DNA of 39,864 bases. Source: Actinomycetes bacterium (lineage in GTDB: Bacteria > Actinomycetota > Actinomycetes > Nanopelagicales > Nanopelagicaceae). The position numbers were made by a program, and so were the translations under genes. The stretch lies in contig CAKKQM010000094.1 in NCBI GenBank assembly GCA_919902125.1, positions 1 to 39,864 of the forward strand. Direction: 5' to 3'. Below are positions 983 through 35,952 of this stretch, in pieces (positions within the stretch are counted from its first letter, which is position 1; every line of letters starts with the position of its first letter). The notes under the pieces are model-generated. The model worked only from the letters and a program-made list of their open reading frames with translations, made no database searches and was not told where the DNA came from.

Positions 983-1032
983 TGGAGGCAAGTGGTTGAA
1001 AATGGAGAGAAATGGAGTAAAGTGGGGAATTA
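983..1032 (+). promoter_or_regulatory. MraZ operator: five TGG repeats at 10-bp period
   Basis: TGG begins at 983, 993, 1003, 1013 and 1023, exactly 10 bp apart, with A/G-rich spacers; weaker GGG and AGG matches continue the phase at 963 and 973. MraZ proteins are known to bind tandem TGGGN-type direct repeats spaced by 5 nt (10-bp period) upstream of their own gene, contacting the same DNA face. Only the last copy here (TGGGG) fits TGGGN fully, but the spacing and the position 34 nt before the mraZ start match well. I infer an autoregulatory site controlling the dcw operon. Confidence 0.75.
996..1023 (+). promoter_or_regulatory. Candidate promoter for the dcw operon
   Basis: TTGAAA (996-1001) and TAAAGT (1018-1023) are separated by 16 bp and fit a sigma-70-type -35/-10 pair. 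Both lie inside the MraZ repeat array, which would let MraZ compete with RNA polymerase. This is a pattern match only; the purine-rich region makes chance matches likely. Confidence 0.3.
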
Positions 1033-1065
1033 TCAGCCTGGAACCTGGGGAAGGGAGCCAGAAAA

Positions 1066-1497
1066 ATGTTTCTCGGCACCCACGAGCCTCGCCTGGATGA
1101 GAAAGGCCGTCTCATCCTTCCCGCGAAATTTCGCGATGAATTAGCCCAAGGTCTTGTCATTACCAAAGGACAAGAGCGTTGTCTTTATGTTTTCCCTTCC
1201 GCGGAGTTTGCAACAATCACAGAGACGTTGAGAAAAGCGCCAGTTACTGCCAAATCCGCGCGCGATTACATGCGCGTGATGTTTGCCGGCGCGCACGATG
1301 AAATTCCCGATCGCCAAGGGCGTATCACTATTCCGCAAGGTCTTCGTACATACGCAGCTTTAGAAAAAGAGTGCGTCGTTATTGGCGCAAATACGCGCGT
1401 GGAAATTTGGGATGCAACTTCTTGGAACGAGTACCTAGCTGATCGCGAGAAGGGATTTGCCGATGTCTCAGAGGAGGTATTCCCAGGTCTGTTCTAA
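1066..1497 (+). CDS. mraZ: Transcriptional regulator MraZ
   Basis: MraZ is a DNA-binding regulator that forms a ring and controls transcription of the division/cell-wall operon it heads. The 143-residue protein has the expected two AbrB-like half-domains: [16 protein letters not shown] near the N-terminus and [13 protein letters not shown] near residue 85. Length matches the family (about 140-150). The ATG at 1066 has AAGGGAG (1051-1057) 8 nt upstream. The in-phase TGG repeats at 983-1032 are its likely binding sites. It is the first gene of the long + strand dcw run and is separated from rsmH by a structured 170-nt leader. Confidence 0.95.
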
Positions 1498-1520
1498 ATA
1501 AACGTTCTGGCTCTCTCTTG

Positions 1521-1597
1521 TGGCCACCGCCGACCTTATGAAGCGGCGCCCCTTCCCCGGCGCCGCTACAAAAAGTTCCGTCGGCCGGCGGTGACCA
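1521..1597 (+). promoter_or_regulatory. Structured leader before rsmH, candidate mraW RNA motif
   Basis: Two nested stems are visible. The inner one is a perfect 8-bp helix, GCGGCGCC (1543-1550) with GGCGCCGC (1559-1566), capped by an 8-nt loop. The outer one pairs TGG (1521-1523), CACCGCC (1525-1531) and GAC (1532-1534) with GTC (1580-1582), GGCGGTG (1587-1593) and CCA (1595-1597), leaving one C-A mismatch and a 4-nt bulge. A conserved structured RNA called the mraW motif has been described upstream of mraW (rsmH) in Actinobacteria; position and complexity fit, but I could not compare with its consensus. It probably acts in cis on rsmH and downstream genes. There is no U-run to suggest a terminator. 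Confidence 0.6.
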
Positions 1598-1601
1598 GAG
1601 G

Positions 1602-1627
1602 AGATAGACCCAACGCAGATAGACCCA
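1602..1627 (+). repeat. Tandem 11-nt repeat in the rsmH leader
   Basis: AGATAGACCCA occurs at 1602-1612 and again at 1617-1627 (15-nt period), directly after the structured element. The first copy overlaps an AGAGGAG (1597-1603) that looks like a ribosome binding site but has no start codon at a suitable distance. It may be part of the leader's conserved core or a protein-binding site. Confidence 0.6.
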
Positions 1628-1667
1628 GTGAGAAATCAATAACTACGAAGAAATGGGGGGGGAGAAG

Positions 1668-2612
1668 GTGGCAGAACATATATCTGTAATGCTCGATCGT
1701 TGCATTGCGCTACTTTCTCCAGCAATTGAGAAGACTGATAATCCCGTCGTTGTTGATGCAACGCTAGGACTGGGCGGACACACCGAAGCCTTATTAAAGA
1801 AATTCCCGCAACTCGTTGTCATCGGCATTGATCGCGATCGCGATGCGTTGGCACTTGCCACATCTCGTTTAGTGCAATTCGGTAGCCGTTTTCGAGCCTT
1901 CCATGCGGTGTATGACGAGATCGGCGAAGTCATTGAAAAGTCTGGCTTTACTAAAGTAAACGGAATTTTATTTGACCTGGGGATTTCATCAATGCAGATA
2001 GATGAAATTGAGCGGGGATTTTCTTATTCGCAAGATGCGCCACTTGATATGCGTATGGATCGTAGCGGCGGTCGGACCGCCGCAGATATTATTAACAACT
2101 ATAGTCGTGATGAGTTAATTGCAATCCTGCGCAACTATGGAGAAGAAAAATTCGCGCCTCGAATTGTCGATGCAATTATCCGTGAGCGAACTAAGGCGCC
2201 TTTGAATTCCACTGCTTATTTGGCTGCTCTTGTAAAAGAAAATATTCCAGCTGCCACTCGTCGAACCGGTGGCAATCCTGCAAAGCGCACTTTTCAGGCG
2301 TTACGTATTGCTGTTAACGATGAATTAGGCGCATTGGCCCGTGCCCTGCCTGCATCTCTTGATGCGCTCATGGTTGGCGGTCGTTTAGTTGTCATGTCAT
2401 TTCAGTCTCTGGAAGATCGAATTGTTAAAGAGTTTTTTGTCAAAGCCACAACTTCCGGAACTCCCCGTGAACTCCCAGTGGAACTGCCAGGGCTCGCAGC
2501 GAAGTTCTCGTTAGTTGTGAAAAGTAGCGAGACTGCGACAGAGAGAGAAATTGATGAGAATCCGCGATCGCAATCGGTGCGACTCCGTGCAATCGAACGG
2601 GTGGCGGCATAA
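1668..2612 (+). CDS. rsmH: 16S rRNA (cytosine(1402)-N(4))-methyltransferase RsmH (MraW)
   Basis: RsmH transfers a methyl group from S-adenosylmethionine to N4 of C1402 in the 16S rRNA decoding centre. Visible family motifs are HISVMLDRC at the N-terminus, the SAM-binding VDATLGLGGHTEALL, GIDRDRDALALA, GILFDLGISS, the signature FSYSQDAPLDMRMDR and NPAKRTFQALRIAVNDEL. Length is 314 residues, normal for the family. I place the start at GTG 1668: a G-rich stretch lies just upstream and family members begin near AEHISVML. The alternative ATG at 1653 has a poor ribosome binding site and would encode an eight-G run (1655-1662). The stop overlaps the ftsL start (TAATG). Confidence 0.95.
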   Translation: MAEHISVMLDRCIALLSPAIEKTDNPVVVDATLGLGGHTEALLKKFPQLVVIGIDRDRDALALATSRLVQFGSRFRAFHAVYDEIGEVIEKSGFTKVNGILFDLGISSMQIDEIERGFSYSQDAPLDMRMDRSGGRTAADIINNYSRDELIAILRNYGEEKFAPRIVDAIIRERTKAPLNSTAYLAALVKENIPAATRRTGGNPAKRTFQALRIAVNDELGALARALPASLDALMVGGRLVVMSFQSLEDRIVKEFFVKATTSGTPRELPVELPGLAAKFSLVVKSSETATEREIDENPRSQSVRLRAIERVAA

Positions 2613-3016
2613 TGGCTATAACTTCTCTTGCTCCAGCGGTTATCCGTTCTAAGCAGATCGTTGCAGAGAAATCTTCTCGTGTCGCACTACGTTTAGTACC
2701 TGACCTTGGAGGCGACAAACGAGTTGATCAGAAGTATTTCGTCACCTTTCTCTCTCTAGTTGGAGCACTAGGACTGCTCATGTTGCTCGTCATCAATACA
2801 TTGCTCGCCCAGGATGCTTTTGAGCTACGCCGTTTGCAGATGCAAGCGACGACACTTAGCGATCAACGTGAAGCGATAGTGAGAGAAATTGCGCGCGCAT
2901 CTTCGCCGGAAGAACTTGCTGCGCGCGCCCAAGCTCTTGGCATGGTTGCCTCGGAGAGTCCCCGGTTTCTTACTTTGGAAGCTGCCCCTATCGCTGATGC
3001 GAGAGCCAAAGGCTAG
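2612..3016 (+). CDS. ftsL: Cell division protein FtsL-like
   Basis: This is a 134-residue bitopic membrane protein in the ftsL position of the dcw cluster. A cytoplasmic N-terminus of about 45 residues precedes one hydrophobic span (about residues 46-70). A predicted coiled coil follows (FELRRLQMQATTLSDQREAI...), ending in ARAQALGMV, which resembles the conserved membrane-distal end of FtsL/FtsB-type proteins. FtsL joins FtsB and FtsQ in a complex that activates FtsW-FtsI at the septum. Sequence conservation in this family is low, so the call rests on topology and position. The start overlaps the rsmH stop by 1 nt; ftsI begins 2 nt after its stop. Confidence 0.85.
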   Translation: MAITSLAPAVIRSKQIVAEKSSRVALRLVPDLGGDKRVDQKYFVTFLSLVGALGLLMLLVINTLLAQDAFELRRLQMQATTLSDQREAIVREIARASSPEELAARAQALGMVASESPRFLTLEAAPIADARAKG

Positions 3017-3018
3017 TT

Positions 3019-4824
3019 ATGGGGAATTTTTTATTAGCACGCGACCGTATCCGTTGGCTGATCGCCAGCGCCTTAATTGTGCTTATGCTTTTTGGGCTAC
3101 GACTTATTGACATCCAAGCAGTTCAAGCCCAGTCTTACGCGTTACGTGCCGCGAGTGAAATGTCACGCACAACTATCATGCCTGCGCCACGCGGTGCTAT
3201 CACTGATATCAACGGAGTAGAATTCGCTCGTAGCGTTGCTGCCATAAATGTCGTGGTTGATCAGACGCTGATTCAGGACCCAGTTATGGCAGCGCAAATA
3301 GTTGCGCCGATCTTGTCTATGTCAGTAAGCGATGTTGAGAAGCAGATAACTGGAAAACGTCTTTGGAATATGGTTGCCCGTAATGTCACGCCAGCCCGAT
3401 GGAACGCTCTTAATTTGGCGCTTTCAAACTATAATCAGAGCTTGGATCGTAAGAGCGTGAGCAAGAGAATCTTTGGTTTTTTCGCGGAACGTGTTTATAC
3501 CCGCGAATATCCATCAGGCTCCCTGATTGCCTCCCTTGTTGGATTTGTTAATCAAGACGGGGTTGGTGCAGCAGGTTTGGAATCTAGTATGAACTCAAAG
3601 ATTTCGGGTATCGCTGGCAAATACATCTATGCCTATGGCTATGGTCCGCAAATTCCTGGATCTCAGCAGGAATTAATTACTGCAAAAACGGGAACAGCCG
3701 TGCGATTGACGATTGACCGCGATGTCCAATGGGTCGCCTCGGTAGCAATCTTTCAAGCAGTGAAAGCGGCTCGCGCTATCAGCGGCACTGTTATTGTCAT
3801 GGATCCTAAGACAGGAGAAATTCTTGCTCATGCAACTGTCCCAACTTTTGATCCGAATAACACAAGAAACATTTCATTGCAATCAATGAGGAACCCATCA
3901 GTGCAGGATGTCTATGAACCAGGCTCAACGGGTAAGGTCATGACTCTCTCCGCTGCTATAGAAGAAGAGAAAGTCGCCCCTTCGACAGTTTTCACAGTTC
4001 CTTATGCTCTTAAAGTTTCAAATACAATTTTTCGCGACCATGAAAAGCATCCAGTGGAACGTTTAACTACTACTGGGATTCTGGCCGCATCAAGCAATAC
4101 CGGTGCGATCCAGGTGGGAGAGAAGTTAAATAACAAGGTGCTGTACAGCTACCTCAGGAAATTTGGGGTTGGTAGCAATACTGGCTCTGGGTTGCCTGGC
4201 GAATCAGCAGGCGTCTTGCCTGATCTCGCCAACTGGACGGGGACCACAGCTCCAACAGTTGCTTTCGGACAGGGTTATTCTTTGACAGCGATGCAAGCAA
4301 CAAGTATTTTTGCAACGATCGCAAATGATGGCGTACGTGTCTCGCCAACTGTGATTGCTGGCACTAGTGATGCCGATGGCCACTTCACACCGGCGCCTTC
4401 GCGCGAGGGTGTCAGAGTTATCAGCGCAGCCACTGCCAACCAGATGCGATTGATGATGGAGAGCGTTGTTTCTGCTAAAGGGACTGCGCCAGAAGCAGCG
4501 ATTCCCGGTTATCGTGTAGCTGGTAAAACTGGTACTGCGATGCGCGTTGATGACACATGTGGTTGCTATCGTGGCTACACCGCTTCATTTATCGGCTTCG
4601 CTCCCGCTGACAAGCCGCGTTATGTCATCAGCGTCACTATTCAAGATCCGCAAGGAGTTTATTATGGTGGAACACTCGGCGGGCCAGTATTTAAAAAAGT
4701 AATGTCGTTTGTTCTTCAAGCTCGCCGCGTCTCGCCAACGCAAACTCAGGTGATTCCTTATCCGCTCAATGAGATGCAAGCCAAGAAGGCCGCAACGGTA
4801 GCACTGGCAAAAGGTAAGAATTGA
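3019..4824 (+). CDS. ftsI: Septal peptidoglycan transpeptidase FtsI (PBP3)
   Basis: This class B penicillin-binding protein cross-links septal peptidoglycan with its periplasmic transpeptidase domain. It has 601 residues: a short cytoplasmic N-terminus, one membrane anchor (about 11-30), a PBP dimerisation domain beginning near PAPRGAITDING, and the catalytic domain. The three active-site motifs are present: STGK at 303-306 (nucleophile Ser303), SSN at 358-360 and KTG at 503-505. It partners FtsW, encoded five genes downstream. The gene begins 2 nt after ftsL, and its TGA overlaps the murE start (TGATG), so translational coupling is likely. Nothing is missing compared with the family. Confidence 0.97.
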   Translation: MGNFLLARDRIRWLIASALIVLMLFGLRLIDIQAVQAQSYALRAASEMSRTTIMPAPRGAITDINGVEFARSVAAINVVVDQTLIQDPVMAAQIVAPILSMSVSDVEKQITGKRLWNMVARNVTPARWNALNLALSNYNQSLDRKSVSKRIFGFFAERVYTREYPSGSLIASLVGFVNQDGVGAAGLESSMNSKISGIAGKYIYAYGYGPQIPGSQQELITAKTGTAVRLTIDRDVQWVASVAIFQAVKAARAISGTVIVMDPKTGEILAHATVPTFDPNNTRNISLQSMRNPSVQDVYEPGSTGKVMTLSAAIEEEKVAPSTVFTVPYALKVSNTIFRDHEKHPVERLTTTGILAASSNTGAIQVGEKLNNKVLYSYLRKFGVGSNTGSGLPGESAGVLPDLANWTGTTAPTVAFGQGYSLTAMQATSIFATIANDGVRVSPTVIAGTSDADGHFTPAPSREGVRVISAATANQMRLMMESVVSAKGTAPEAAIPGYRVAGKTGTAMRVDDTCGCYRGYTASFIGFAPADKPRYVISVTIQDPQGVYYGGTLGGPVFKKVMSFVLQARRVSPTQTQVIPYPLNEMQAKKAATVALAKGKN

Positions 4825-6308
4825 TGGAACGTCCAATATCGCCATCGATGAAGTCGCTCTGCGCGATTGCGCGACTCGTGGGTGCAACGGTGCCAGATGT
4901 AGATGTGGATATCACAGGTATCACGCACAACAGTACTGAAATTAAAGAAGGAGATCTCTTTCTCGCGTTTGCTGGAGCACGGGTACATGGTGCGAGCTTT
5001 TCTGCTGCTGCACGGATGCGAGGTGCACGTGCAGTATTAACCGACGCAGATGGTGCGACTCAGGTGGTTACCGATTTGCCAACAATCGTCGTTAGCGATC
5101 CGCGTCGCTCTGCGGGAATCTTGAGTGCTTGGTTTTATGACGAACCAATGCGTGACATCTTCTCTGTCGGGATTACTGGAACAAATGGAAAGACGACGAC
5201 AACTACTTTGCTTTACCAGATATGGAGCCACGCTGGCCGCGAAAGTGGGCTAATCGGCACGGTTGAAACTCGCATAGGCAAGGAAGTTATTGCGAGCAAG
5301 AGAACCACTCCTGAAAGTTGCGATCTACAGGCACTTGTGGCAACGATGCGCGAACGTCATGTCCGCAATTTTGCTATGGAGGTATCAAGTCACGCAGTTT
5401 CATTAGAGCGAATTCGTGGATCTCATTTCTCTGTTGTGGGATTTACCAATCTAAGTCAAGATCATCTCGATTTCCATCACACGATGGAAGAGTACTTTCA
5501 GGCCAAGTCAGCGCTCTTCACTTTTGAATATGCCGATCTTGCAGTAATTAATATTGACGATTCATATGGCCAGCGTTTGGCAGAACTTATCGAAATGCCA
5601 ACTCTGCGATTATCTCGACATGATGTGCGAGCGGATTGGAGTTACGAATCAATTCGCTCGCATCTACAGGGCAACGAGGTGGCCATTCGCGGCACAGGTG
5701 GCATCTTGATTGAGGGGCTACTGCCACTGCATGGCGATTACAACCTCGACAATGCTCTGATGGCGATCGCGATTGCATGTGAAAGCGGCGTTGACCCTAT
5801 TGCTATTCAAGCTTTATTGTCGAAACTTACCGGCGCCGAAGGCCGATTAGAGAGCATCAGTGTCGGTCAAGATTTTGGAGCCTTTGTCGATTATGCGCAT
5901 TCGGCTGATGCGGTGGGTCGCGTTTTGGAAGCTTGCCGCCAGATGACGCAGGGGAAAGTTATCGCTGTTTTGGGCTGCGGAGGGGATCGCGATTGGACGA
6001 AGCGGCCCTTGATGGGACGAGCCTTAGCCGATGGGTCCGATCTTGCCGTCTTTACAAGTGACAATCCTCGTTCGGAAGATCCTGCGGCGATCTTGAATGA
6101 GATGACACGCTCGCTTCAGGTAAATTCTCCGAACGCCGTAATCGTTGATCGTACAAATGCTATTAAATATGCGGTAGCCCAGGCTCGTACCGGGGATATC
6201 GTTGTAGTTCTTGGTAAAGGCCATGAAACTGGTCAGGAAGTTGCTGGCGTTGTGTATCCATTTGATGATCGTTTGGTGCTTGCCGCAGCGATCGAAGGCC
6301 GAGCATGA
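4824..6308 (+). CDS. murE: UDP-N-acetylmuramoyl-L-alanyl-D-glutamate--2,6-diaminopimelate ligase MurE
   Basis: MurE is the cytoplasmic ATP-dependent ligase that adds the third residue to the peptidoglycan stem peptide. The 494-residue protein has the ATP-binding loop GITGTNGKTT at about 117-126 and the substrate signature TTPESCDLQ. DNPR at 413-416, within SDNPRSEDP, is the motif that selects meso-diaminopimelate over lysine, so the cell wall is predicted to be of the A1gamma (mDAP) type. The ATG at 4824 overlaps the ftsI stop; an in-frame TTG at 4821 is the less likely alternative. The stop overlaps the murF start as ATGA. Confidence 0.97.
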   Translation: MERPISPSMKSLCAIARLVGATVPDVDVDITGITHNSTEIKEGDLFLAFAGARVHGASFSAAARMRGARAVLTDADGATQVVTDLPTIVVSDPRRSAGILSAWFYDEPMRDIFSVGITGTNGKTTTTTLLYQIWSHAGRESGLIGTVETRIGKEVIASKRTTPESCDLQALVATMRERHVRNFAMEVSSHAVSLERIRGSHFSVVGFTNLSQDHLDFHHTMEEYFQAKSALFTFEYADLAVINIDDSYGQRLAELIEMPTLRLSRHDVRADWSYESIRSHLQGNEVAIRGTGGILIEGLLPLHGDYNLDNALMAIAIACESGVDPIAIQALLSKLTGAEGRLESISVGQDFGAFVDYAHSADAVGRVLEACRQMTQGKVIAVLGCGGDRDWTKRPLMGRALADGSDLAVFTSDNPRSEDPAAILNEMTRSLQVNSPNAVIVDRTNAIKYAVAQARTGDIVVVLGKGHETGQEVAGVVYPFDDRLVLAAAIEGRA

Positions 6309-7690
6309 TTAAACTGACTGCTGGGCAGATTGCCGATATCGTGCATGGAGAATTAAATGCTCCGCCAGACCTTTTGGTAACACAAGCGCCTGTTTTTGAT
6401 TCACGCGATGTACTTTCGGGATGTATCTTCTTGGCACTAAAGGGTGAACACCGAGACGGTCATGACTTTGCCCAGGCTGCATTGGCGCAAGGAGCGGCCC
6501 TTGTAATTTCAACGCGCCTGATCGCCGGGCCTTGCATTGTCGTTGACGATGTTCTTATAGCTCTTGGTCTGTTGGCACGGCACATTCGTCGAGCATTGCC
6601 CAACTTGATCGTGATTGGCATTACTGGCTCACAGGGCAAGACGACTACCAAGGATTTACTTGCTTGGATTTTAGGCATGCAGGGCGAAACAATTGCAGCA
6701 CATAGTTCTTTTAATAATGAGTTGGGCATGCCGCTGACATTGATGCGTTGCACCCAATCGACTCGTTATTGCATTCTGGAAATGGGCGCCAGCCATCCTG
6801 GCGAGATCACAACCTTGTGCTCCATTGCTACCCCAGATATTGGGGTCGTCCTCAAAGTGGGAAGTGCCCATCTGGGTGAATTTGGATCGCGCGAAGCCAT
6901 AGCGTCAACCAAAGCGGAGTTGATCCAAGCGCTAGGCGAGAACGGCATTGCAATTTTGGGTCTCTATGACAATTTCACGCCAACAATGGCAGATGGACGC
7001 AGACTTTCAGTTCTTACCTTCGGGCAGACGCACCAGGCGCAGATAAGGGCGACAGATATAGATATTCGGGAAGGCCGTGCTCATTTTGATCTCGTGACGC
7101 CAGATGGCCGGGCCGCAGTCGGGATGCGATTAATCGGAGCGCACCAAATTCCTAATGCGCTGGCAGCAGCAGCAGTTGCAACAGCGCTGCACATTCCACT
7201 TGATGTCATTGCCAGTGGGCTTTCCACCGCTGAAATTGCCAGCAAATGGCGTATGGAGCTTCATGAACTAAACAATCTTCTCGTCATTAACGACGCGTAT
7301 AACGCGAATCCAGAATCTACTGTCGCAGCGTTGCGGACGCTCTCGCTCTTTGCGCAAGAACGAGGCGGTCAGTCCTGGGCGTTCTTAGGAAAGATGCGCG
7401 AACTCGGCGAGTCAGCTAGCCAAGAGCATGCATTAATCGGCACTCTTGCCGAGGAAATGGGAATTGACCACTTAGTCTGCGTAGATGCTCCTGAGTATGG
7501 GCTGAATATTTTAGCCAAGAGCGATATGCGTGTTCACTATTGTCGCACGCAATCAGAGGCTCGGGAGTTGGTGGATCACTTTACTTTCGGGGATGTAGTC
7601 CTAATCAAAGCCTCACGTGCAGAGAAGATGGAAGAATTAGCGCAGGAGATTGTACGTATCTGGAATCAGAGAGCAGGTCTGCCAGAATGA
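6305..7690 (+). CDS. murF: UDP-N-acetylmuramoyl-tripeptide--D-alanyl-D-alanine ligase MurF
   Basis: MurF joins the D-Ala-D-Ala dipeptide to the UDP-MurNAc-tripeptide, using ATP, to complete the cytoplasmic precursor. The 461-residue protein shows the Mur ligase P-loop GITGSQGKT at 105-113, an FNNELGMPLTL block, EMGASHPGEI and the C-terminal NDAYNANPESTVAALRTL signature. Length is usual for the family. It overlaps murE upstream and mraY downstream, each by an ATGA. No D-Ala-D-Ala ligase gene (ddl) is in this cluster, so its substrate must come from a gene elsewhere. Confidence 0.97.
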   Translation: MIKLTAGQIADIVHGELNAPPDLLVTQAPVFDSRDVLSGCIFLALKGEHRDGHDFAQAALAQGAALVISTRLIAGPCIVVDDVLIALGLLARHIRRALPNLIVIGITGSQGKTTTKDLLAWILGMQGETIAAHSSFNNELGMPLTLMRCTQSTRYCILEMGASHPGEITTLCSIATPDIGVVLKVGSAHLGEFGSREAIASTKAELIQALGENGIAILGLYDNFTPTMADGRRLSVLTFGQTHQAQIRATDIDIREGRAHFDLVTPDGRAAVGMRLIGAHQIPNALAAAAVATALHIPLDVIASGLSTAEIASKWRMELHELNNLLVINDAYNANPESTVAALRTLSLFAQERGGQSWAFLGKMRELGESASQEHALIGTLAEEMGIDHLVCVDAPEYGLNILAKSDMRVHYCRTQSEARELVDHFTFGDVVLIKASRAEKMEELAQEIVRIWNQRAGLPE

Positions 7691-8745
7691 GAGAAATCCT
7701 GATTGCTGGCGCGTTCGCGCTTTTGATAAGTCTTTTCGGTACGCCAATTATTATCCGTTGACTCACTCGTCGTGGTTATGGACAGATCATCCGTGATGAC
7801 GGACCAAGTAGTCATCACACCAAACGTGGAACACCCACTATGGGCGGCATCATCATTATTTTGGCATCCTTTATTGGTTTTCTCTTAAGTCATGCATTAA
7901 CTCGCGTAGCGATCAGTATCTCTGCTCTGCTTGTCATGGGATTAGTTTTTTCACTGGGATTTGTAGGCTTTCTTGATGATTGGCTTAAAGTTTCACGGCA
8001 ACGTTCTTTAGGTTTGACTGCGCGACAAAAGATTATCGGACAGACACTTTTCGCTGCCATCTTTGGCGCGCTGGGGATTCATTTCCCCGATCGTGATGGC
8101 TTAACGCCACTCTCATTGCATTTATCGACAGTTCGGGATACATCTTTCAAATTGGGTGCAATTCTTGTAGTCATCTGGATTGTTGTCATGGTGATTGGCA
8201 CAAGCAATGCCGTAAACCTCACCGATGGCTTGGACGGCCTAGCAACCGGTGCATCGGTTATGACATTTCTGGCATTTGTTTTGATCGGCGTCTGGGAGTT
8301 CGGCGAAGGATGTGCCGTTACTCCTGGCATCAACTGCTATCAAGTAAGAGATCCTTTGGATTTAGCTGTGCTGGCTGCATCCCTTGCCGGGGCATGTACT
8401 GGCTTTTTGTGGTGGAATGCTTCACCAGCCAAGATCTTCATGGGGGACACCGGATCACTTGCCCTTGGCGGCGCACTTGCAGGTTTAGCCGCGACGCTAC
8501 GTACTCAGTTGCTGCTGGTCCCACTTGGCGGTCTCTTTGTCATCATTACCATGTCAGTCATTATTCAACGCCTCTATTTTAAGATATCGGGCGGCAAACG
8601 CGTTTTTAAGATGGCTCCGCTACAACATCATTTTGAACTTGTCGGTTGGGGCGAAGTAACTATTGTGCTTCGCTTCTGGATTATCGCTGGGCTATCAGTT
8701 GCATTAGGTCTTGGTCTTTTCTATGCCCAATGGGTGGCGGGATAG
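7687..8745 (+). CDS. mraY: Phospho-N-acetylmuramoyl-pentapeptide transferase MraY, interrupted by in-frame TGA
   Basis: MraY moves phospho-MurNAc-pentapeptide onto undecaprenyl phosphate, forming lipid I, and is an essential polytopic membrane enzyme. Read through, the frame has 352 codons (usual length about 340-370) and keeps the family signatures: [18 protein letters not shown] (Lys46, Thr49), the Asp pair in FLDDWLK (97-98), [22 protein letters not shown] and [11 protein letters not shown]. Codon 25 (7759-7761) is TGA, in TM1/loop1 between IIIR and LTRRGYGQ. The first canonical downstream start, ATG 7840 (codon 52), would lose TM1 and the KRGTPTM loop, so a shortened enzyme should be inactive. 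A single base change from TTA (Leu) or TGG (Trp) would explain it. The start overlaps the murF stop as ATGA. It could be an error, a pseudogene or readthrough. Confidence 0.85.
7759..7761 (+). other. In-frame TGA stop codon inside mraY
   Basis: TGA is in the mraY frame at codon 25 with the context CGT TGA CTC. Conserved MraY sequence continues on both sides in the same frame, so this is a substitution, not a frameshift. TGA serves as the normal stop of many neighbours (ftsI, murE, murF, murD, murG, dnaE, hisD), so a genome-wide UGA reassignment is unlikely. Confidence 0.95.
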
Positions 8746-8747
8746 CA

Positions 8748-10127
8748 GTGAGATATTTTGAGCTTTCACAGGCAAAGGTGTTGATTCTGGGTGGTGGAAT
8801 TACCGGCGCTGCAGTATCACGAGTATTGCGAAGTCGCGGCATGGAAGTCTCTATAGTTGATGAGAATGAGAGTTTGGCAGCAGGTGGAGCTGGATATATT
8901 TCAATGGAAATTGCAACTGATGCAACTTGGAGTTTCGCCGTTGTCTCGCCAGGATGGCGCACAGACCATCCATTTATAAAAAGGTTGCGCGCCAAAGGTG
9001 TTCCTTTAGTGAGCGAGATTGATCTTGCTTGGCAGTTACGTGATGAACTCGCACCTGGGCAAAAATGGCTTGCGATCACAGGTACCAATGGCAAGACCAC
9101 AACAGTTGAGATGGTAACTGCTATGTTGCAGGCGGATGGTCGTAAAGCAGCGGCGTGTGGCAATGTTGGCGAGACTGTTATTGAAGCGGTAGCGGGCGAG
9201 ATAATGTACGACTATCTCGTCCTTGAACTCTCCTCTTTCCAATTGCAATGGAGCGATTTGCCAGAGTTTTATGCATGCGCAATTCTTAATATTGCAGATG
9301 ATCACGTTGATTGGCACGGCAGTTTTGCTGAATATGTTTACGCCAAGTTGCGCATCCTGAAACGTTCCCAGATGGCGATCCTCAACGCCGATGATGGCAC
9401 AATCGTTACCGCAACACAGCATTGGCATGGTCGCAAAGTTTTCTTTTCTCTGGATACGCCCTCTCCAGGGGAATTGGGAGTAGTGGAGAATTTATTGGTT
9501 GATCGCGCTTTTATTGCTGATCCCCAAGAAGCGGTACTCATTGCAGAACTAGTTGACGTCCATCCGAGTGCACCGCATAACGTCTCCAACGCTTTGGCCG
9601 CTGCGGGATTGGCATGCAGCGTTGGAGTTTCACATGAAGTTATTCGCGGTGCATTGCAAGCATTTCGACCAGGGCGACATCGGATTGAAACTATTTTGGA
9701 GTCCAACGGGATTACCTGGATTAATGATTCCAAGGCAACCAATCCTCATGCTGCGGCAGCATCTTTGATGTCACAATTCTCTGTTATCTGGATTGCCGGA
9801 GGGCTAGCAAAAGGCGCAGCGATGGAGAGTTTGATCGCCAGAACCAAGGGGCGTATCAAGGCGGCGATATTGATTGGAACGGATAGAGAATTAATTGCAA
9901 CTGCGTTGGCGACCCAAACTCCAGAAGTGAAGGTGGTCCGTATTGATGCAGACGCTGGGGCCACTGACTCGTTGATGGAACGGGTAGTCCTTGCAGCAAA
10001 AGATCTAGCTACGTCGGGGGATGTGGTATTACTCGCACCAGCCTGTGCTTCCATGGATCAATTCATTTCCTATGCCGATCGTGGCGATCAATTTACTGCT
10101 GCTGTGAAGAAGTTGGCACAGTCCTGA
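8748..10127 (+). CDS. murD: UDP-N-acetylmuramoyl-L-alanine--D-glutamate ligase MurD
   Basis: MurD adds D-glutamate to UDP-MurNAc-L-Ala in the cytoplasm, using ATP. The 459-residue protein begins with a dinucleotide-like fold (AKVLILGGGITGAAVSRVL). It carries the Mur ligase P-loop ITGTNGKTT at about 110-118, NIADDHVDWHGSF, the HNVSNALAAAGLA block, FRPGRHRIE and NDSKATNPHAA. I start at GTG 8748, 2 nt after the mraY stop and with GGCGGGA upstream; an in-frame ATG at 8730 inside mraY is possible. A longer in-frame extension to 8646 lies entirely inside mraY and is not conserved-looking. The stop overlaps the ftsW start (TGATG). Confidence 0.96.
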   Translation: MRYFELSQAKVLILGGGITGAAVSRVLRSRGMEVSIVDENESLAAGGAGYISMEIATDATWSFAVVSPGWRTDHPFIKRLRAKGVPLVSEIDLAWQLRDELAPGQKWLAITGTNGKTTTVEMVTAMLQADGRKAAACGNVGETVIEAVAGEIMYDYLVLELSSFQLQWSDLPEFYACAILNIADDHVDWHGSFAEYVYAKLRILKRSQMAILNADDGTIVTATQHWHGRKVFFSLDTPSPGELGVVENLLVDRAFIADPQEAVLIAELVDVHPSAPHNVSNALAAAGLACSVGVSHEVIRGALQAFRPGRHRIETILESNGITWINDSKATNPHAAAASLMSQFSVIWIAGGLAKGAAMESLIARTKGRIKAAILIGTDRELIATALATQTPEVKVVRIDADAGATDSLMERVVLAAKDLATSGDVVLLAPACASMDQFISYADRGDQFTAAVKKLAQS

Positions 10128-11275
10128 TGCGCCCGCAAAGTTTCCTCTCCAAACCAATTAGTTCTTATTACCTTTTACTTGGCAGTACCGCTGCTCTGAC
10201 AGTTCTGGGTTTGGTGATGGTGCTGTCGGCTTCGTCCATCCATTCTTTGGAGACAAGCGGTTCATCCTTCGCCATCGTGTTGCGTCAATTCCTCTTTCTC
10301 ATTCTGGCAGTTCCCTTGGGGTTCCTCGCTTCTCGGTTGCCCCTTGCTAGATGGCGATCGGTGGCTAAATATTCATTACTTGGCTCAGTAGCGATCTTGC
10401 TGGTGGTCCAGATCCCCAGTGTGGGACATACGGTCAATGGCAATCGAAACTGGATCGGCGTGGGTTCAGCAATGATTCAACCGAGTGAGTTTGCAAAATT
10501 CTTTATGATTTTATGGGCAGGCTACATATTGTCCAAGCGAGAACGTAATGGTGAAACGCACACGAATGTCATTGCACTACTTGTTCCGTCTTTCGTGGTG
10601 GTCATGGTCCTAATCATGCTCGGTAGTGATCTTGGTACAACGGTGGTATTCGCAGCAATTCTTGTGGGACTGCTCTTTGTTTCAGGCATTCCTTTCCGAC
10701 ATATTGTTTTTGCCTCCATCGTGGGGTTGGCCTTTGTTGCAACAATGATCGTGACGGTGCCTAACCGGATGAGACGATTGCTGGTAGTTCTCCACCCTTT
10801 TTCACCTGAGTACTATAAATTTACTGGTTGGCAGCCCGCGCATAGCATCATGGGATTAGCTAGCGGAGGTTTTTTCGGAGTTGGTCTGGGTGCTAGTCGA
10901 CAGAAGTGGGGCAATCTCGCTGAGGCGCACACAGATTTTATTTTTTCGGTGATCGGCGAAGAGTTAGGACTCTTTGGAACGTTAGGAGTTCTTCTTCTCT
11001 TAGCTGCGCTGATTTTTTCAATTTTTCGGATTGCAATTCGCGCGCCAGATCCCATGGTCCGTTACACCTGTGCAGGGATCGGATGCTGGATTGCGGTGCA
11101 AACAGTCTTAAATCTCGGTTCAGCCACTAGCGTGTTACCTGTGGTTGGTGTGACGTTACCGCTCGTATCGTATGGAGGCTCTTCACTCCTTGCAACTTTC
11201 TTGGCTTTAGGTTTTGTTTTAGGAGCCGCACTTCGTGATCCCGCCATCGCGCCAGCGGTTAAGCGAGCACGCTAA
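10127..11275 (+). CDS. ftsW: Septal peptidoglycan glycosyltransferase FtsW (SEDS family)
   Basis: FtsW is the multi-pass SEDS polymerase that makes septal glycan strands from lipid II together with FtsI. The 382-residue protein consists mainly of hydrophobic spans (about ten). It shows the family blocks GLVMVLSASS, NGNRNWIGVG, QPSEFAKF, ASGGFFGVGLGASRQKWGN, EAHTDFIFSVIGEELGL and the late SYGGSSLLATF. Its place between murD and murG argues for FtsW over the elongation paralogue RodA. Unlike many actinobacterial FtsW proteins it has almost no C-terminal cytoplasmic tail (ends PAIAPAVKRAR), consistent with a reduced genome. The stop overlaps the murG start (TAATG). Confidence 0.95.
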   Translation: MRPQSFLSKPISSYYLLLGSTAALTVLGLVMVLSASSIHSLETSGSSFAIVLRQFLFLILAVPLGFLASRLPLARWRSVAKYSLLGSVAILLVVQIPSVGHTVNGNRNWIGVGSAMIQPSEFAKFFMILWAGYILSKRERNGETHTNVIALLVPSFVVVMVLIMLGSDLGTTVVFAAILVGLLFVSGIPFRHIVFASIVGLAFVATMIVTVPNRMRRLLVVLHPFSPEYYKFTGWQPAHSIMGLASGGFFGVGLGASRQKWGNLAEAHTDFIFSVIGEELGLFGTLGVLLLLAALIFSIFRIAIRAPDPMVRYTCAGIGCWIAVQTVLNLGSATSVLPVVGVTLPLVSYGGSSLLATFLALGFVLGAALRDPAIAPAVKRAR

Positions 11276-12375
11276 TGAGTTCTGATATCTCTCGCACCAT
11301 AGTTTTTGCAGGTGGCGGTACAGCTGGACATGTTGAACCTGCTTTAGCTGTTGCGCGGGAGTGGAGAGATCGTCACCCTAATGACCGATGCATCTTTATT
11401 GGCACTCCAGAAGGACTAGAGAACTCACTTGTTCCCGCTGCTGGATTTGAACTTCAGTCTATTCCCAAGGTGGTAATGCCACGTTCCTTTAACACCAATC
11501 TCTTGCGATTGCCATGGCAATTGCTACGAGCAGTCCAATGTGCGCGCGCCATTATTTCTCAATCTACTTTGGTCATTGGTTTTGGTGGATATGTTTCGGC
11601 ACCTGCCTATCTTGCTGCCCGAATTGAAAAAGTTCCGATTGTGATCCATGAGGCAAATGCAAAAATTGGTTGGGCTAACCGCCTAGGCGCGCATTTCACC
11701 AAGTACTTGGCGATCGCTCACCCCGTTGACAGAGGTAAATTTGCGAATGCCAAAAAAACTGGTTTACCCCTAAGGGCAGATGTACAAGCAGCTGTTCGGG
11801 AAGCTGCTCCCAATTGGGACCAGGCGCGAGAGCAGGCTAAGCATCGTCTGGGTTGGAACTTGAATCAGCCGACCCTGCTTATTCTTGGCGGGTCACAAGG
11901 TTCGGTTTCCATCAATGCACAAATTGCAGCGGCGATGCCTGCGCTGACTTCACGAGGTATACAAATCTTGCATTCTGTCGGAGCTAAAAATGTCTTGCCA
12001 CAGAGTACATCGAGTTACAGAGCAACGCCCTACATCAGCGATATGGCAACTGCCTACCTTGGTGCCGATCTAATCATCGCGAGAAGCGGCGCGGTTACTT
12101 GCGCGGAAGTTGGTGCGCTCGGGCGGATGGCAATTTTCATCCCATTACCAATTGGAAATGGAGAGCAAGCCAGAAATGCCGACTACTTAGTTGCTGCTGG
12201 GCGTGCGATCGTCGTGTCGCAACGAGAGTTCACCGCAGATTGGCTTAGTGCAAACCTTGATGCGATCTTGCTCCGATCGGCCAAGACTTCTTCGCAAGGC
12301 TTGACGGATGATCTTGCTGCGGCAAAGAAAATTGTTGAGCTTATAGAGAGCGCACTTACGGGGGTGGGTATTTGA
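11275..12375 (+). CDS. murG: UDP-GlcNAc--lipid I N-acetylglucosaminyltransferase MurG
   Basis: MurG transfers GlcNAc from UDP-GlcNAc to lipid I on the inner face of the membrane, producing lipid II. It is a GT-B fold enzyme of 366 residues. The N-terminal glycine-rich loop GGGTAGHVEPALAVA normally binds the lipid-linked phosphate; VIHEANAKIGWANR is the usual acceptor region; ILGGSQGSVSIN and SGAVTCAEVGALGRMAIFIPLP form the donor-nucleotide site. Length is normal. The start overlaps the ftsW stop, and its TGA overlaps the TTG start of murC. Confidence 0.96.
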   Translation: MSSDISRTIVFAGGGTAGHVEPALAVAREWRDRHPNDRCIFIGTPEGLENSLVPAAGFELQSIPKVVMPRSFNTNLLRLPWQLLRAVQCARAIISQSTLVIGFGGYVSAPAYLAARIEKVPIVIHEANAKIGWANRLGAHFTKYLAIAHPVDRGKFANAKKTGLPLRADVQAAVREAAPNWDQAREQAKHRLGWNLNQPTLLILGGSQGSVSINAQIAAAMPALTSRGIQILHSVGAKNVLPQSTSSYRATPYISDMATAYLGADLIIARSGAVTCAEVGALGRMAIFIPLPIGNGEQARNADYLVAAGRAIVVSQREFTADWLSANLDAILLRSAKTSSQGLTDDLAAAKKIVELIESALTGVGI

Positions 12376-13760
12376 AGTATTCATTGAATGATCTTGCTGG
12401 CAAGCGCGTTCATTTCGTGGGCATCGGTGGCGCAGGCATGAGTGGCTTGGCACGCATCATGGCATCCGACGGAATCACCGTCACTGGTTCGGATGTTAAA
12501 GAATCCTCTGTTCTCTCTGGCCTGCGCGCCATCGGTGCACTAATTGCCATAGGTCATCGCTCCGAGAACATTGTCGGTGCCGATTACCTGGTTTATTCAA
12601 GCGCTATCTCTGCAGATAACCCAGAACTGATTCATGCGACGCAATTAAACATTCCGAAATTGTCGCGTGCTCAAGCGCTAGCGGTTTTAATGTCAGGCTC
12701 CAAGAGCATTGCGGTAGCCGGTACTCACGGTAAGACCACTACTACCTCCATGCTCACTGTTGCTATGCAAAATTGTGGTGAAGATCCTTCTTTTGCAATT
12801 GGTGGCACGCTTACGATCTCTGGATCCAATGCCCACAGGGGTGCAGGTGATTTCTTTATTGCAGAGGCCGATGAATCTGATGGTTCTTTCATTGAATATC
12901 ACCCATATGGCGCGATCATCACCAATATCGAACATGATCATGTTGATTATTTCGCCACTCTGCAATCCGTGGTTGATGCTTTTAGTGCATTCGCCACGAC
13001 AATTTCACCGGAAGGTTTTTTGGTCTACTGCGCCGATGATGAGAGAACTCAGGTCTTGGGTTCGCGCATTACGCATTGCGCCAAAGTTTCGTATGGAACT
13101 CACGATCTTGCTGATCTCCATATTGACCAAATCGAACTGCAACCTGGTGGTTCAAGAGCTCGGGCACTATGGCATGGTCGAGCAATTGGCAATATTGAAC
13201 TCCAAGTACCAGGTCACCACAATCTTTTAAATGCATCGGCTGCCTTAGCCACCGGACTTGTGCTAGGACTTTCTGCTCCACAACTTCTGGCTGGATTAGC
13301 AACTTTCCGCGGGACCGGACGACGTTTTGAACTCAAAGGTCAAGTACAAGGAATTCGCGTAATTGATGATTACGGTCATCACCCAACTGAGATATTGGCA
13401 ACCCTAAGCGCTGCGCGGCGTTACGCAACTGATGGACGGATCCTTGTCATCTTTCAACCACATCGATATTCCCGAACTCGCGCATTTACCAATCGGTTTG
13501 CTGCCGCACTCGACCTGGCTGACCATGCCTGGGTATTAGAGGTTTATGGCGCAAGCGAAAAACCCATACCAGGGGTAACGGGGATGTCTATTACGAAATT
13601 GATGAAACATGGAACCTTCGAGCCAAATTTCATGGCTGTCACAGAGGCAATTGTGGAAGAGGCTAGGCCGGGCGATGTCATTCTGACTCTCGGCGCAGGA
13701 GATGTAAGTTCATTGGCACCGCTCATTGTAGAAGCCCTGGGTAAGAAATATCAGGAATAA
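12372..13760 (+). CDS. murC: UDP-N-acetylmuramate--L-alanine ligase MurC
   Basis: MurC adds L-alanine to UDP-MurNAc, the first amino-acid ligation of the peptidoglycan precursor. The 462-residue protein has the N-terminal HFVGIGGAGMSGLA, the P-loop AGTHGKTTT at about 116-124, EADESDGSF, NIEHDHVDYF and the C-terminal DDYGHHPTEI and FQPHRYSRT blocks. The start is a TTG at 12372 that overlaps the murG stop (TTGA), with a GGGGGTGGG stretch upstream as a possible ribosome binding site; no ATG or GTG is available before the conserved N-terminus. It is followed 5 nt later by ftsQ. murB, often next in line in other phyla, is absent here. Confidence 0.96.
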   Translation: MKYSLNDLAGKRVHFVGIGGAGMSGLARIMASDGITVTGSDVKESSVLSGLRAIGALIAIGHRSENIVGADYLVYSSAISADNPELIHATQLNIPKLSRAQALAVLMSGSKSIAVAGTHGKTTTTSMLTVAMQNCGEDPSFAIGGTLTISGSNAHRGAGDFFIAEADESDGSFIEYHPYGAIITNIEHDHVDYFATLQSVVDAFSAFATTISPEGFLVYCADDERTQVLGSRITHCAKVSYGTHDLADLHIDQIELQPGGSRARALWHGRAIGNIELQVPGHHNLLNASAALATGLVLGLSAPQLLAGLATFRGTGRRFELKGQVQGIRVIDDYGHHPTEILATLSAARRYATDGRILVIFQPHRYSRTRAFTNRFAAALDLADHAWVLEVYGASEKPIPGVTGMSITKLMKHGTFEPNFMAVTEAIVEEARPGDVILTLGAGDVSSLAPLIVEALGKKYQE

Positions 13761-34767: not shown

Positions 34768-35952
34768 ATGAGTGAAATCCTTGGACACTTTGAATCCTAT
34801 GGTGGTCGCTTTGTTCCGGAGGCGCTTATTGGAGCGCTGGATGAATTGGAAGAAGCGCACAATTTGGCGCTGGTCGATCCAGAATTTCAACGCGAACTCA
34901 AGCATTTACATCTGACCTACACGGGTCGCCCCAGTATTTTGACGGAAGTTAAGCGATTTGCAGTCCACGCTGGTGGTGCGCAGATTCTGCTGAAGCGAGA
35001 AGATCTTAATCACACGGGCAGCCATAAAATTAATAATGTTTTAGGGCAAGCACTTCTCACTAAGCGTATGGGGAAGAAACGCATCATTGCCGAAACGGGT
35101 GCGGGCCAACACGGTGTTGCCGCCGCAACTGCTGCCGCGCTCTTTGGACTTGAGTGCGTTATCTATATGGGCGAGGAAGATACGAAACGCCAATCGCTCA
35201 ATGTTGCGCGTATGAAATTACTGGGTGCCGAAGTTATTCCAGTTAGTGCGGGATCTCGTACATTGAAAGATGCCATCAATGAAGCGATGCGTGATTGGGT
35301 CACCAACGTTGATACGACCCATTACTTATTGGGCACAGTAGCCGGGCCACATCCATTTCCCACCATGGTCCGTGACTTTCAGAAAATTATTGGTGAAGAA
35401 GCGCGAGAGCAAGTACTTGAATTAACCAGTCGACTTCCGGATGCCGTATTGGCTTGTATCGGGGGAGGTTCTAATGCAATCGGAATTTTTCATGCATTCA
35501 TTCCAGATAAGCAAGTGCGCTTAATTGGGTTAGAGGCTGGTGGCGATGGAATTGAAACAGGGCGCCATGCAGCCACGATCACTGGTGGATCTGTCGGAGT
35601 TCTGCATGGTACCCGCTCTTATGTATTGCAAGATGAAAATGGTCAGACAGTAGAGTCGCATTCGATTTCTGCTGGCCTTGATTATCCGGGAGTTGGTCCA
35701 GAGCACGCTTACCTGCATGACATTGGCCGCGCCGAATATCGCGCCATCACAGATGATCAAGCAATGGCGGCGTTTGCGCTTTTGTCGAAAACTGAAGGAA
35801 TTATTCCTGCGATTGAAAGTGCACATGCGCTGGCTGGTGCAATCAATGTGGGGAAAGAACTTGGGCCTGATGCCATCTTGTTGATCAACCTCTCCGGACG
35901 TGGAGATAAGGATGTTCAGACCGCCGCCACATATTTTGGGATTGAACTGTAG
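34768..35952 (+). CDS. trpB: Tryptophan synthase beta subunit TrpB
   Basis: TrpB condenses indole with serine on PLP to give tryptophan. The 394-residue protein is of the TrpB1 type that pairs with TrpA. It has [51 protein letters not shown] with the PLP Lys87, [10 protein letters not shown] (catalytic Glu), the phosphate-binding GGGSNAIG, and [16 protein letters not shown] 34768 has an AAGGG further upstream than ideal. The trpA ATG follows its stop directly with no gap. Confidence 0.97.

Follow-up and report, generated by a model that had tools for sequence, protein, structure and literature searches.

Here, we describe a structured RNA element lying directly behind mraZ in 39,864 nucleotides of DNA from a member of the Nanopelagicaceae (contig CAKKQM010000094.1; this whole stretch is referred to below as the window). 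We propose that the element may serve as an anti-Shine-Dalgarno hairpin in the mraZ 3′ UTR, limiting MraZ synthesis through pairing of its loop with the mraZ start, a reading which, on the comparative data, we judge to have an even chance of being right. Comparison of sequences shows that the structure covaries, that its loop is invariant, that the element is linked to mraZ, and that the complementarity of the mraZ start region to the loop is unusual in the order Nanopelagicales. The features of the region are collected in Table 1.

Table 1. Coordinates of the features around mraZ and rsmH in the window
Feature	Position	Strand	Basis or remark
Promoter-like stretch: TTGAAA (996-1001), 16-nt spacer, TAAAGT (1018-1023)	996-1023	+	Sequence; same hexamers and spacer in 19/19 genus loci
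Possible small hairpin, CUGG (1038-1041)/CCAG (1058-1061), G-rich loop	1038-1061	+	By eye on relatives
GGGGAAG in the mraZ Shine-Dalgarno stretch	1047-1053	+	Sequence; exact complement of loop 1552-1558
mraZ	1066-1497	+	ORF; aligned with 12 MraZ proteins
mraW RNA element, divergent RF01746 relative, read as mraZ 3′ UTR	1505-1617	+	Covariance-model match
Outer helix, 5′ strand	1512-1531	+	16 pairs, 14 with changes on both sides
Inner helix, 5′ strand	1542-1550	+	8 pairs, 5 with changes on both sides
Invariant loop CUUCCCC, anti-Shine-Dalgarno-like	1552-1558	+	Invariant columns of alignment A3
Inner helix, 3′ strand	1559-1567	+	Covariation alignment
Outer helix, 3′ strand, contains AGAGGAG (1597-1603)	1587-1606	+	Covariation alignment
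Two AGATAGACCCA copies, 15 nt apart	1602-1612, 1617-1627	+	Private to own genome; outside the conserved element
GGGGGAG in the rsmH Shine-Dalgarno region	1658-1664	+	7 bp with loop, one G-U; possible second target
rsmH (mraW)	1668-2612	+	ORF 1653-2612; GTG 1668 inferred from relatives' ATG at the same place

The closest named relatives of the window MraZ (80 to 94% identical) come from Nanopelagicales and other actinobacterial MAGs, many of them titled as being from lakes. Downstream of rsmH are further ORFs which we take to belong to the division cluster, the gene names being given by likeness except for that of MraZ, which was aligned. Transcription would start at about position 1030, upstream of mraZ. 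The motifs TGGAG and GTGGGG, which are about 10 nt apart (window 985-1025) and cover the spacer of TTGAAA-16-TAAAGT, are presumably MraZ-type boxes overlapping the promoter-like stretch at 996-1023; MraZ bound there would occlude the promoter of its own gene and so repress it.

An earlier reading of this DNA, made from the letters alone, had placed an 8-bp inner helix within a long outer helix, and this architecture is borne out. The 8 bp are 1543-1550/1559-1566, a ninth pair (A-U) joins 1542 to 1567, and the long, interrupted outer helix (1512-1531/1587-1606) encloses both. The fold of positions 1500 to 1680 has a minimum free energy of −68.6 kcal/mol (z, −3.20), a stability equaled by none of 200 shuffled sequences. 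In an alignment (A3) of 45 diverse Nanopelagicales sequences, picked from 101 distinct ones, the structure comprises 24 pairs with 96.3% of cells paired, and its covariation score is 0.354, compared with 0.137 ± 0.009 for shuffled alignments (0/500 reach the observed value) and at most 0.105 for slid versions. From this covariation, we conclude that the element is a conserved RNA, and its structure is, by comparison of sequences, firmly supported.

The same reading had assigned the element to the mraW RNA motif, and here, too, it has held up: the window element is homologous to mraW RNA, of which it is a divergent, sub-threshold relative. The Rfam model RF01746 matches 1505-1617 over its full length (model positions 1 to 107 of 107) with 38.0 bits and an E value of 8.6e-7, a score short of the gathering score of 50 bits; no Rfam family reached gathering level anywhere in the window, and the runner-up by bit score was a plant microRNA family on the opposite strand (E, 0.098). 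The preliminary description had named a covariance score below threshold and a lack of compensatory changes as observations that would speak against it; the score is indeed below threshold, whereas both sides change in 19 of the 24 aligned pairs. The shortfall recurs among relatives, since at an E value of ≤1 the model finds the element in all 21 genomes of the genus (own included), none of them over the cut-off, and at ≤0.1 with stricter filters in 99 of 151 Nanopelagicales genomes, again none over the cut-off. Across a phylum sample of 396 genomes, 36 have a match at an E value of ≤0.01 and 24 are past the cut-off. Of 20 diverse loci from the class, all of which carry the CUUCCCC loop, only 4 attain the gathering score, and the curated RF01746 therefore misses much of the class. 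A model built from A3 alone recognized, at an E value of ≤1, 49 of the 71 loci taken from the rest of the class (many weakly or in the inner hairpin only) and 2 of 65 controls, both in a family that lacks mraZ; the controls comprised 40 mraZ loci from other classes, 15 rsmH loci from that mraZ-less family and 10 background stretches. The mraW RNA family was described from Actinomycetales; on record since 2010 with no function assigned, it has a question mark in one column of its table row (PMC2864571). The window element resembles that family in its full-length match, its position between mraZ and rsmH and its loop, CUUCCCC being present also in the family consensus; it differs in falling below the cut-off and in being read here as an mraZ 3′ UTR, not as an rsmH leader.

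Two other parts of the preliminary description fared less well. The 15-nt-period repeat exists insofar as there are two AGATAGACCCA copies, but it is not conserved: two copies were found in 1 of 84 order loci, that of the genome itself, and we rejected the repeat as a part of the element. Similarly, AGAGGAG does lie 64 nt before the GTG at 1668, but it is a helix strand, its partner being the 5′ arm of the outer helix (alignment columns 142 to 146), and not a free ribosome-binding site. The exact heptamer is present in 18 of the 84 loci and a start 5 to 13 nt after AGGAG in 3 of the 84, and the idea of an orphan ribosome-binding site serving a tiny ORF was likewise discarded; neither the repeat nor the orphan site is a feature. 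The loop CUUCCCC at 1552-1558 and its complement GGGGAAG at 1047-1053 were absent from that description.

In the window, GGGGAAGGG (1047-1055) is complementary to 1550-1558 at 9 of 9 positions (predicted duplex, −17.8 kcal/mol), and the stretch 1652-1666 before rsmH would form a duplex of −15.1 kcal/mol with the loop. For the comparison between genomes, we scanned for GGGGRRG, which gives 7 bp with the loop when G-U is allowed, up to 30 nt from the start in mraZ leaders and background genes and from −30 to +9 nt around candidate starts for rsmH (these stretches may exceed the 39-nt background). Within Nanopelagicales, the motif was present in 87 of 101 mraZ leaders and 72 of 83 rsmH start regions, compared with 3 of 331 background genes of four genomes of the order (30 nt and 39 nt alike), a background that rises to 6/331 when starts anywhere in the first 25% of the ORF are admitted. 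Among the 21 arrangements of five C and two U, CUUCCCC ranks first for mraZ by both count and duplex energy; for rsmH, it is first by count and 5th to 6th by duplex energy. Sites in order loci are concentrated at the mraZ start (−30 to −1, 88/91) and the rsmH start (79/91), with fewer at −120 to −31 (17/90) and −250 to −121 (17/88) relative to mraZ, and none within the mraZ coding region (0/91), from the mraZ stop to the loop (0/91), from the loop to rsmH (0/90) or in the first 300 nt of rsmH (n = 91). Loci with identical sequences were collapsed to one before sites, closing pairs and leaders were counted, and two loci (L048 and L051) were dropped, as their orientation was undeterminable. Fisher values treat related genomes as independent and were set aside as evidence (mraZ-bearing n = 92, i.e., 80 + 12). 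Elsewhere on the contig, other GGGGAAG or GGGGAGG sites lie a few bases before possible starts at 35070 and 35462 (+) and 38130 (−); these are candidate targets should the element act in trans.

Outside the order, the complementarity lends weaker support to the pairing. There, the 7-mer occurs in 11 of 74 mraZ and 14 of 76 rsmH regions of the class (background, 4/262, or 6/262 at 39 nt), and CUUCCCC ranks, of the 21 arrangements, 9th by count and 10th to 15th by energy for mraZ and 10th by count and 15th to 19th by energy for rsmH. We therefore abandoned the notion of a universal 7-bp pairing with the mraZ start, which fails on these figures, and restrict the claim to the order. Class mraZ leaders with a strong Shine-Dalgarno sequence do carry a 6-mer in 45 of 67 cases (background, 9/69), mostly GGGAGG, and 8 of 12 parsed leaders of the sister families f79 and f80 have a 6-mer (7-mer, 0/12; three of the 15 loci were unparsed). 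However, GGGAGG is an ordinary strong site, and the 6-mer enrichment could also be plain Shine-Dalgarno strength.

In the window, the computed local fold favors a pairing other than the CUGG/CCAG hairpin seen by eye, and the predicted unpaired probabilities of the seven bases of GGGGAAG are 0.25, 0.02, 0.12, 0.62, 0.90, 0.99 and 0.0; the heptamer is thus predicted to be only partly exposed, compared with an element loop that is fully unpaired (probability 1.0 in the predicted fold of the isolated element). Among 106 distinct Nanopelagicales leaders with a −10-like TAAAGT, GGGGAAG is found near the start in 66 and is absent in 40. A GGGG loop on a stem of 6 bp or more is present in 33 of the 40 leaders that lack GGGGAAG and in 8 of the 66 that have it, such that leaders without the exact complement usually present four exposed Gs instead. 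Thirty GGGG hairpins were found, of which one (L126, a 4-bp match unlike the hairpin) was excluded; 6 further leaders were without one. The 29 aligned hairpins have 97.0% of cells paired, 60 double-change cells and an invariant C-GGGG-G loop, and their covariation (0.865) exceeds that of shuffled (0.259; 0/500 reach it) and slid (≤0.233) versions. This alignment of GGGG-loop hairpins alone supersedes a first swap/shuffle test, in which the two leader architectures had been mixed and the signal was modest (own mean, 11.5; shuffled, 9.0; swapped, 9.8). The covarying C-GGGG-G hairpin lies at the 5′ end of the leader in other genera of the order (for example, L102, 303-326; L120, 272-295; and L123, 331-354). 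The GGGG-leader pattern follows clades and may therefore reflect just one or two events.

The GGGG of these leaders may kiss the CCCC of the element loop. Extended to the class, this would mean that throughout Actinomycetes the "mraW RNA" is an mraZ 3′ UTR whose loop kisses an exposed G-rich leader loop and so sets the repressor dose, and that in freshwater Nanopelagicales it can also reach the rsmH start, choosing between two start sites; we offer this wider version tentatively and think it unlikely to hold in full.

The loop itself is conserved well beyond the order. All 80 named mraZ loci that were collected from the class, through the MraZ protein alone, have CTTCCCC within 400 nt past the mraZ stop (shuffle expectation, 0.028 per locus), and in 79 of them the loop is carried on a stem of 5 pairs or more when one mismatch is tolerated. 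The base 5′ of the loop (1551 in the window) varies (C in 41, T in 17, A in 14 and G in 8 of the 80), and in genomes that we assign by inference to Mycobacterium-like and Corynebacterium-like groups the closing pairs differ while the heptamer is identical. In other classes of the phylum, CTTCCCC was found behind mraZ in 0 of 40 mraZ loci (one of which, L291, stops short of rsmH). Four loci (L175, L197, L199 and L403) have a second CTTCCCC between mraZ and rsmH, apparently as a second hairpin in L199, and four others (L179, L189, L202 and L203) have an extra CTTCCTC-like stretch in the 3′ arm, between the inner and outer helices. Since the loop is constant wherever mraZ is present, no covariation between loop and target can be demonstrated.

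Such constancy is also what a protein-binding site would produce. The stem-held CUUCCCC could be bound by an RNA-binding protein, possibly MraZ itself in an autoregulatory loop, with the order's start complementarity being secondary; invariance of all seven bases across the class goes beyond what class-wide pairing would demand, and the reverse complement of the loop, GGGGAAG, resembles by eye the GTGGGGAA of the upstream MraZ boxes. The linkage to mraZ and the decay of the loop where mraZ is missing (see below) are predicted equally by an MraZ site. MraZ boxes are repeated at a spacing of about 10 bp, however, and the loop holds one box at most. Moreover, the occurrence of complementary sites in 87/101 and 72/83 start regions against 3/331 would then be coincidence. 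On balance, we consider a protein site a rather unlikely explanation.

Whether the element belongs to mraZ or to rsmH can be addressed in genomes in which the two genes have come apart. In one genus (g260), the loop-bearing element is directly behind mraZ in 3 of 3 genomes, and none of the 3 has CTTCCCC in the 700 nt preceding rsmH; the distance from mraZ to rsmH is about 10 kb in two of these (7,468,655 to 7,479,116 in G558 and 3,012 to 12,684 in G557), and the two genes are on different contigs in the third (G560). The usually contiguous division cluster is broken between mraZ and rsmH in this genus (L348, L349, L350 and L404 to L406). The opposite situation is found in an order in which rsmH is present in 197 of 197 genomes and MraZ in 15, all from families f79 and f80. 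In these two families, the loop is present in 15 of 15. In their sister family f3, which has no MraZ, the stretch before rsmH retains the loop CUUCCCC in 18 of 59 genomes, retains the helices with another loop (UUCC, UUUU, UUCG and others) in 23, holds partial traces of the element in 13 and has none in 5. The 59 are 65 loci (L301 to L315 and L351 to L400) less six same-genome repeats, and the 18 comprise 14 identified by script and four weaker-stem loci added by hand. The family appears to have caught a decaying element at several stages, with helices still before rsmH in many genomes and the loop drifting. Loss of the loop together with mraZ as an all-or-none event, which the first 15 genomes of f3 had suggested, was not upheld by this wider sample.

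Published transcription start sites bear on the same question. In Corynebacterium glutamicum, the motif is at 2,267,021-2,266,916 on the minus strand and the rsmH start site listed is 2,266,932 (PMC3890552), so that all but the last 17 nt of the motif precede the rsmH transcript; for C. diphtheriae, a table footnote puts the motif upstream of the mraW start site (PMC5784534). Taken together, the linkage and the start sites indicate that the filing of the element as an rsmH leader, which the preliminary description had shared, is probably wrong, or else incomplete, as part of f3 still has the helices although mraZ is gone. The comparative evidence instead ties the element to mraZ, as its 3′ UTR, and the earlier leader reading was half right. 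That the element tracks mraZ rather than rsmH is, as far as genome comparison goes, strongly supported; a second role may nonetheless exist, given that the loop survives in 18 of the 59 loci without mraZ and the helices in most of them.

A classical rsmH leader, in which the loop would form a pseudoknot with the rsmH Shine-Dalgarno sequence some 100 nt downstream and gate RsmH synthesis, would accord with the Rfam name and "Cis-reg" type, the position before rsmH, the 72 of 83 complementary rsmH start regions of the order and the helices retained before rsmH in many mraZ-less genomes. Yet in the genus where some 10 kb separate the two genes, the element is found behind mraZ and is missing in front of rsmH, the rsmH start site is at or after the motif in the two corynebacteria for which the sources above give one, and the loop's complementarity to rsmH is at 5th to 6th rank of 21 by energy in the order and at 14/76 outside it; we regard this explanation as improbable. 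Least probable of all is a role purely in processing or stability, in which RNase III would cut the long helix, or the helix would shield the mraZ 3′ end, with no pairing of the loop; this would suit the long covarying helices and the reported action of RNase III on C. glutamicum mraZ mRNA but leaves an invariant heptamer with a varying 5′ neighbor and varying closing pairs unexplained.

We return to the anti-Shine-Dalgarno hairpin as the most likely explanation. Once mraZ has been transcribed, the two nested helices of its 3′ UTR would display the seven-base loop, which would pair with GGGGAAG, or a G-U variant of it, in the start region of that very message or of another copy and block ribosome loading on mraZ. 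MraZ, the repressor heading the division cluster, would be kept scarce because ribosomes load poorly on the paired start, and in Nanopelagicales the rsmH start could compete for the loop. Long duplexes may also be cut by RNase III. The pairing of loop and start in the cell, the lowering of MraZ by it and any part for RNase III are what we would predict from the comparisons described above. The cut made by RNase III in C. glutamicum reportedly lies, by the title of the study concerned, in the mraZ coding region, and so neither supports nor excludes the model. Cleavage of that mRNA is reported to be needed there for efficient division (Maeda 2016, as cited in PMC8247434 and PMC6705760).

A message whose 3′ end acts on its own start has a precedent in icaR of Staphylococcus aureus, where, in the account given in PMC3868564, a 3′-UTR UCCCCUG pairs with UAGGGGG of the message's own Shine-Dalgarno region, RNase III cuts, and compensatory mutations restored complex formation. 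The likeness lies in a C-rich 3′-UTR motif opposite a G-rich Shine-Dalgarno sequence of the same message, which in both cases codes for a repressor. We claim no shared structure or ancestry, and the motif described here, known from sequence comparison, forms the loop of a long hairpin with covarying stems that sits immediately behind the stop codon. Complementarity of this type between a 3′-UTR motif and its own Shine-Dalgarno sequence is found in Nanopelagicales and is unspecific outside the order. UpsM of Rhodobacter, as described in PMC5089854, is comparable in that it, too, is a structured RNA joined to mraZ where the division cluster begins; it is, however, an unrelated 5′-leader sRNA of Alphaproteobacteria, located before mraZ and made by termination. 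No title or abstract among the open-access PMC papers found by our searches connected the loop of mraW RNA with mraZ or with a Shine-Dalgarno sequence.

Re-assignment of mraW RNA to mraZ makes the question of the motif's function directly testable. If the proposal is true, the element would be a structurally elaborate addition to those bacterial mRNAs in which the 3′ end silences the start of the same molecule. Regulation of the division cluster would then also operate after transcription in Actinomycetes, the class to which Mycobacterium and Corynebacterium belong.
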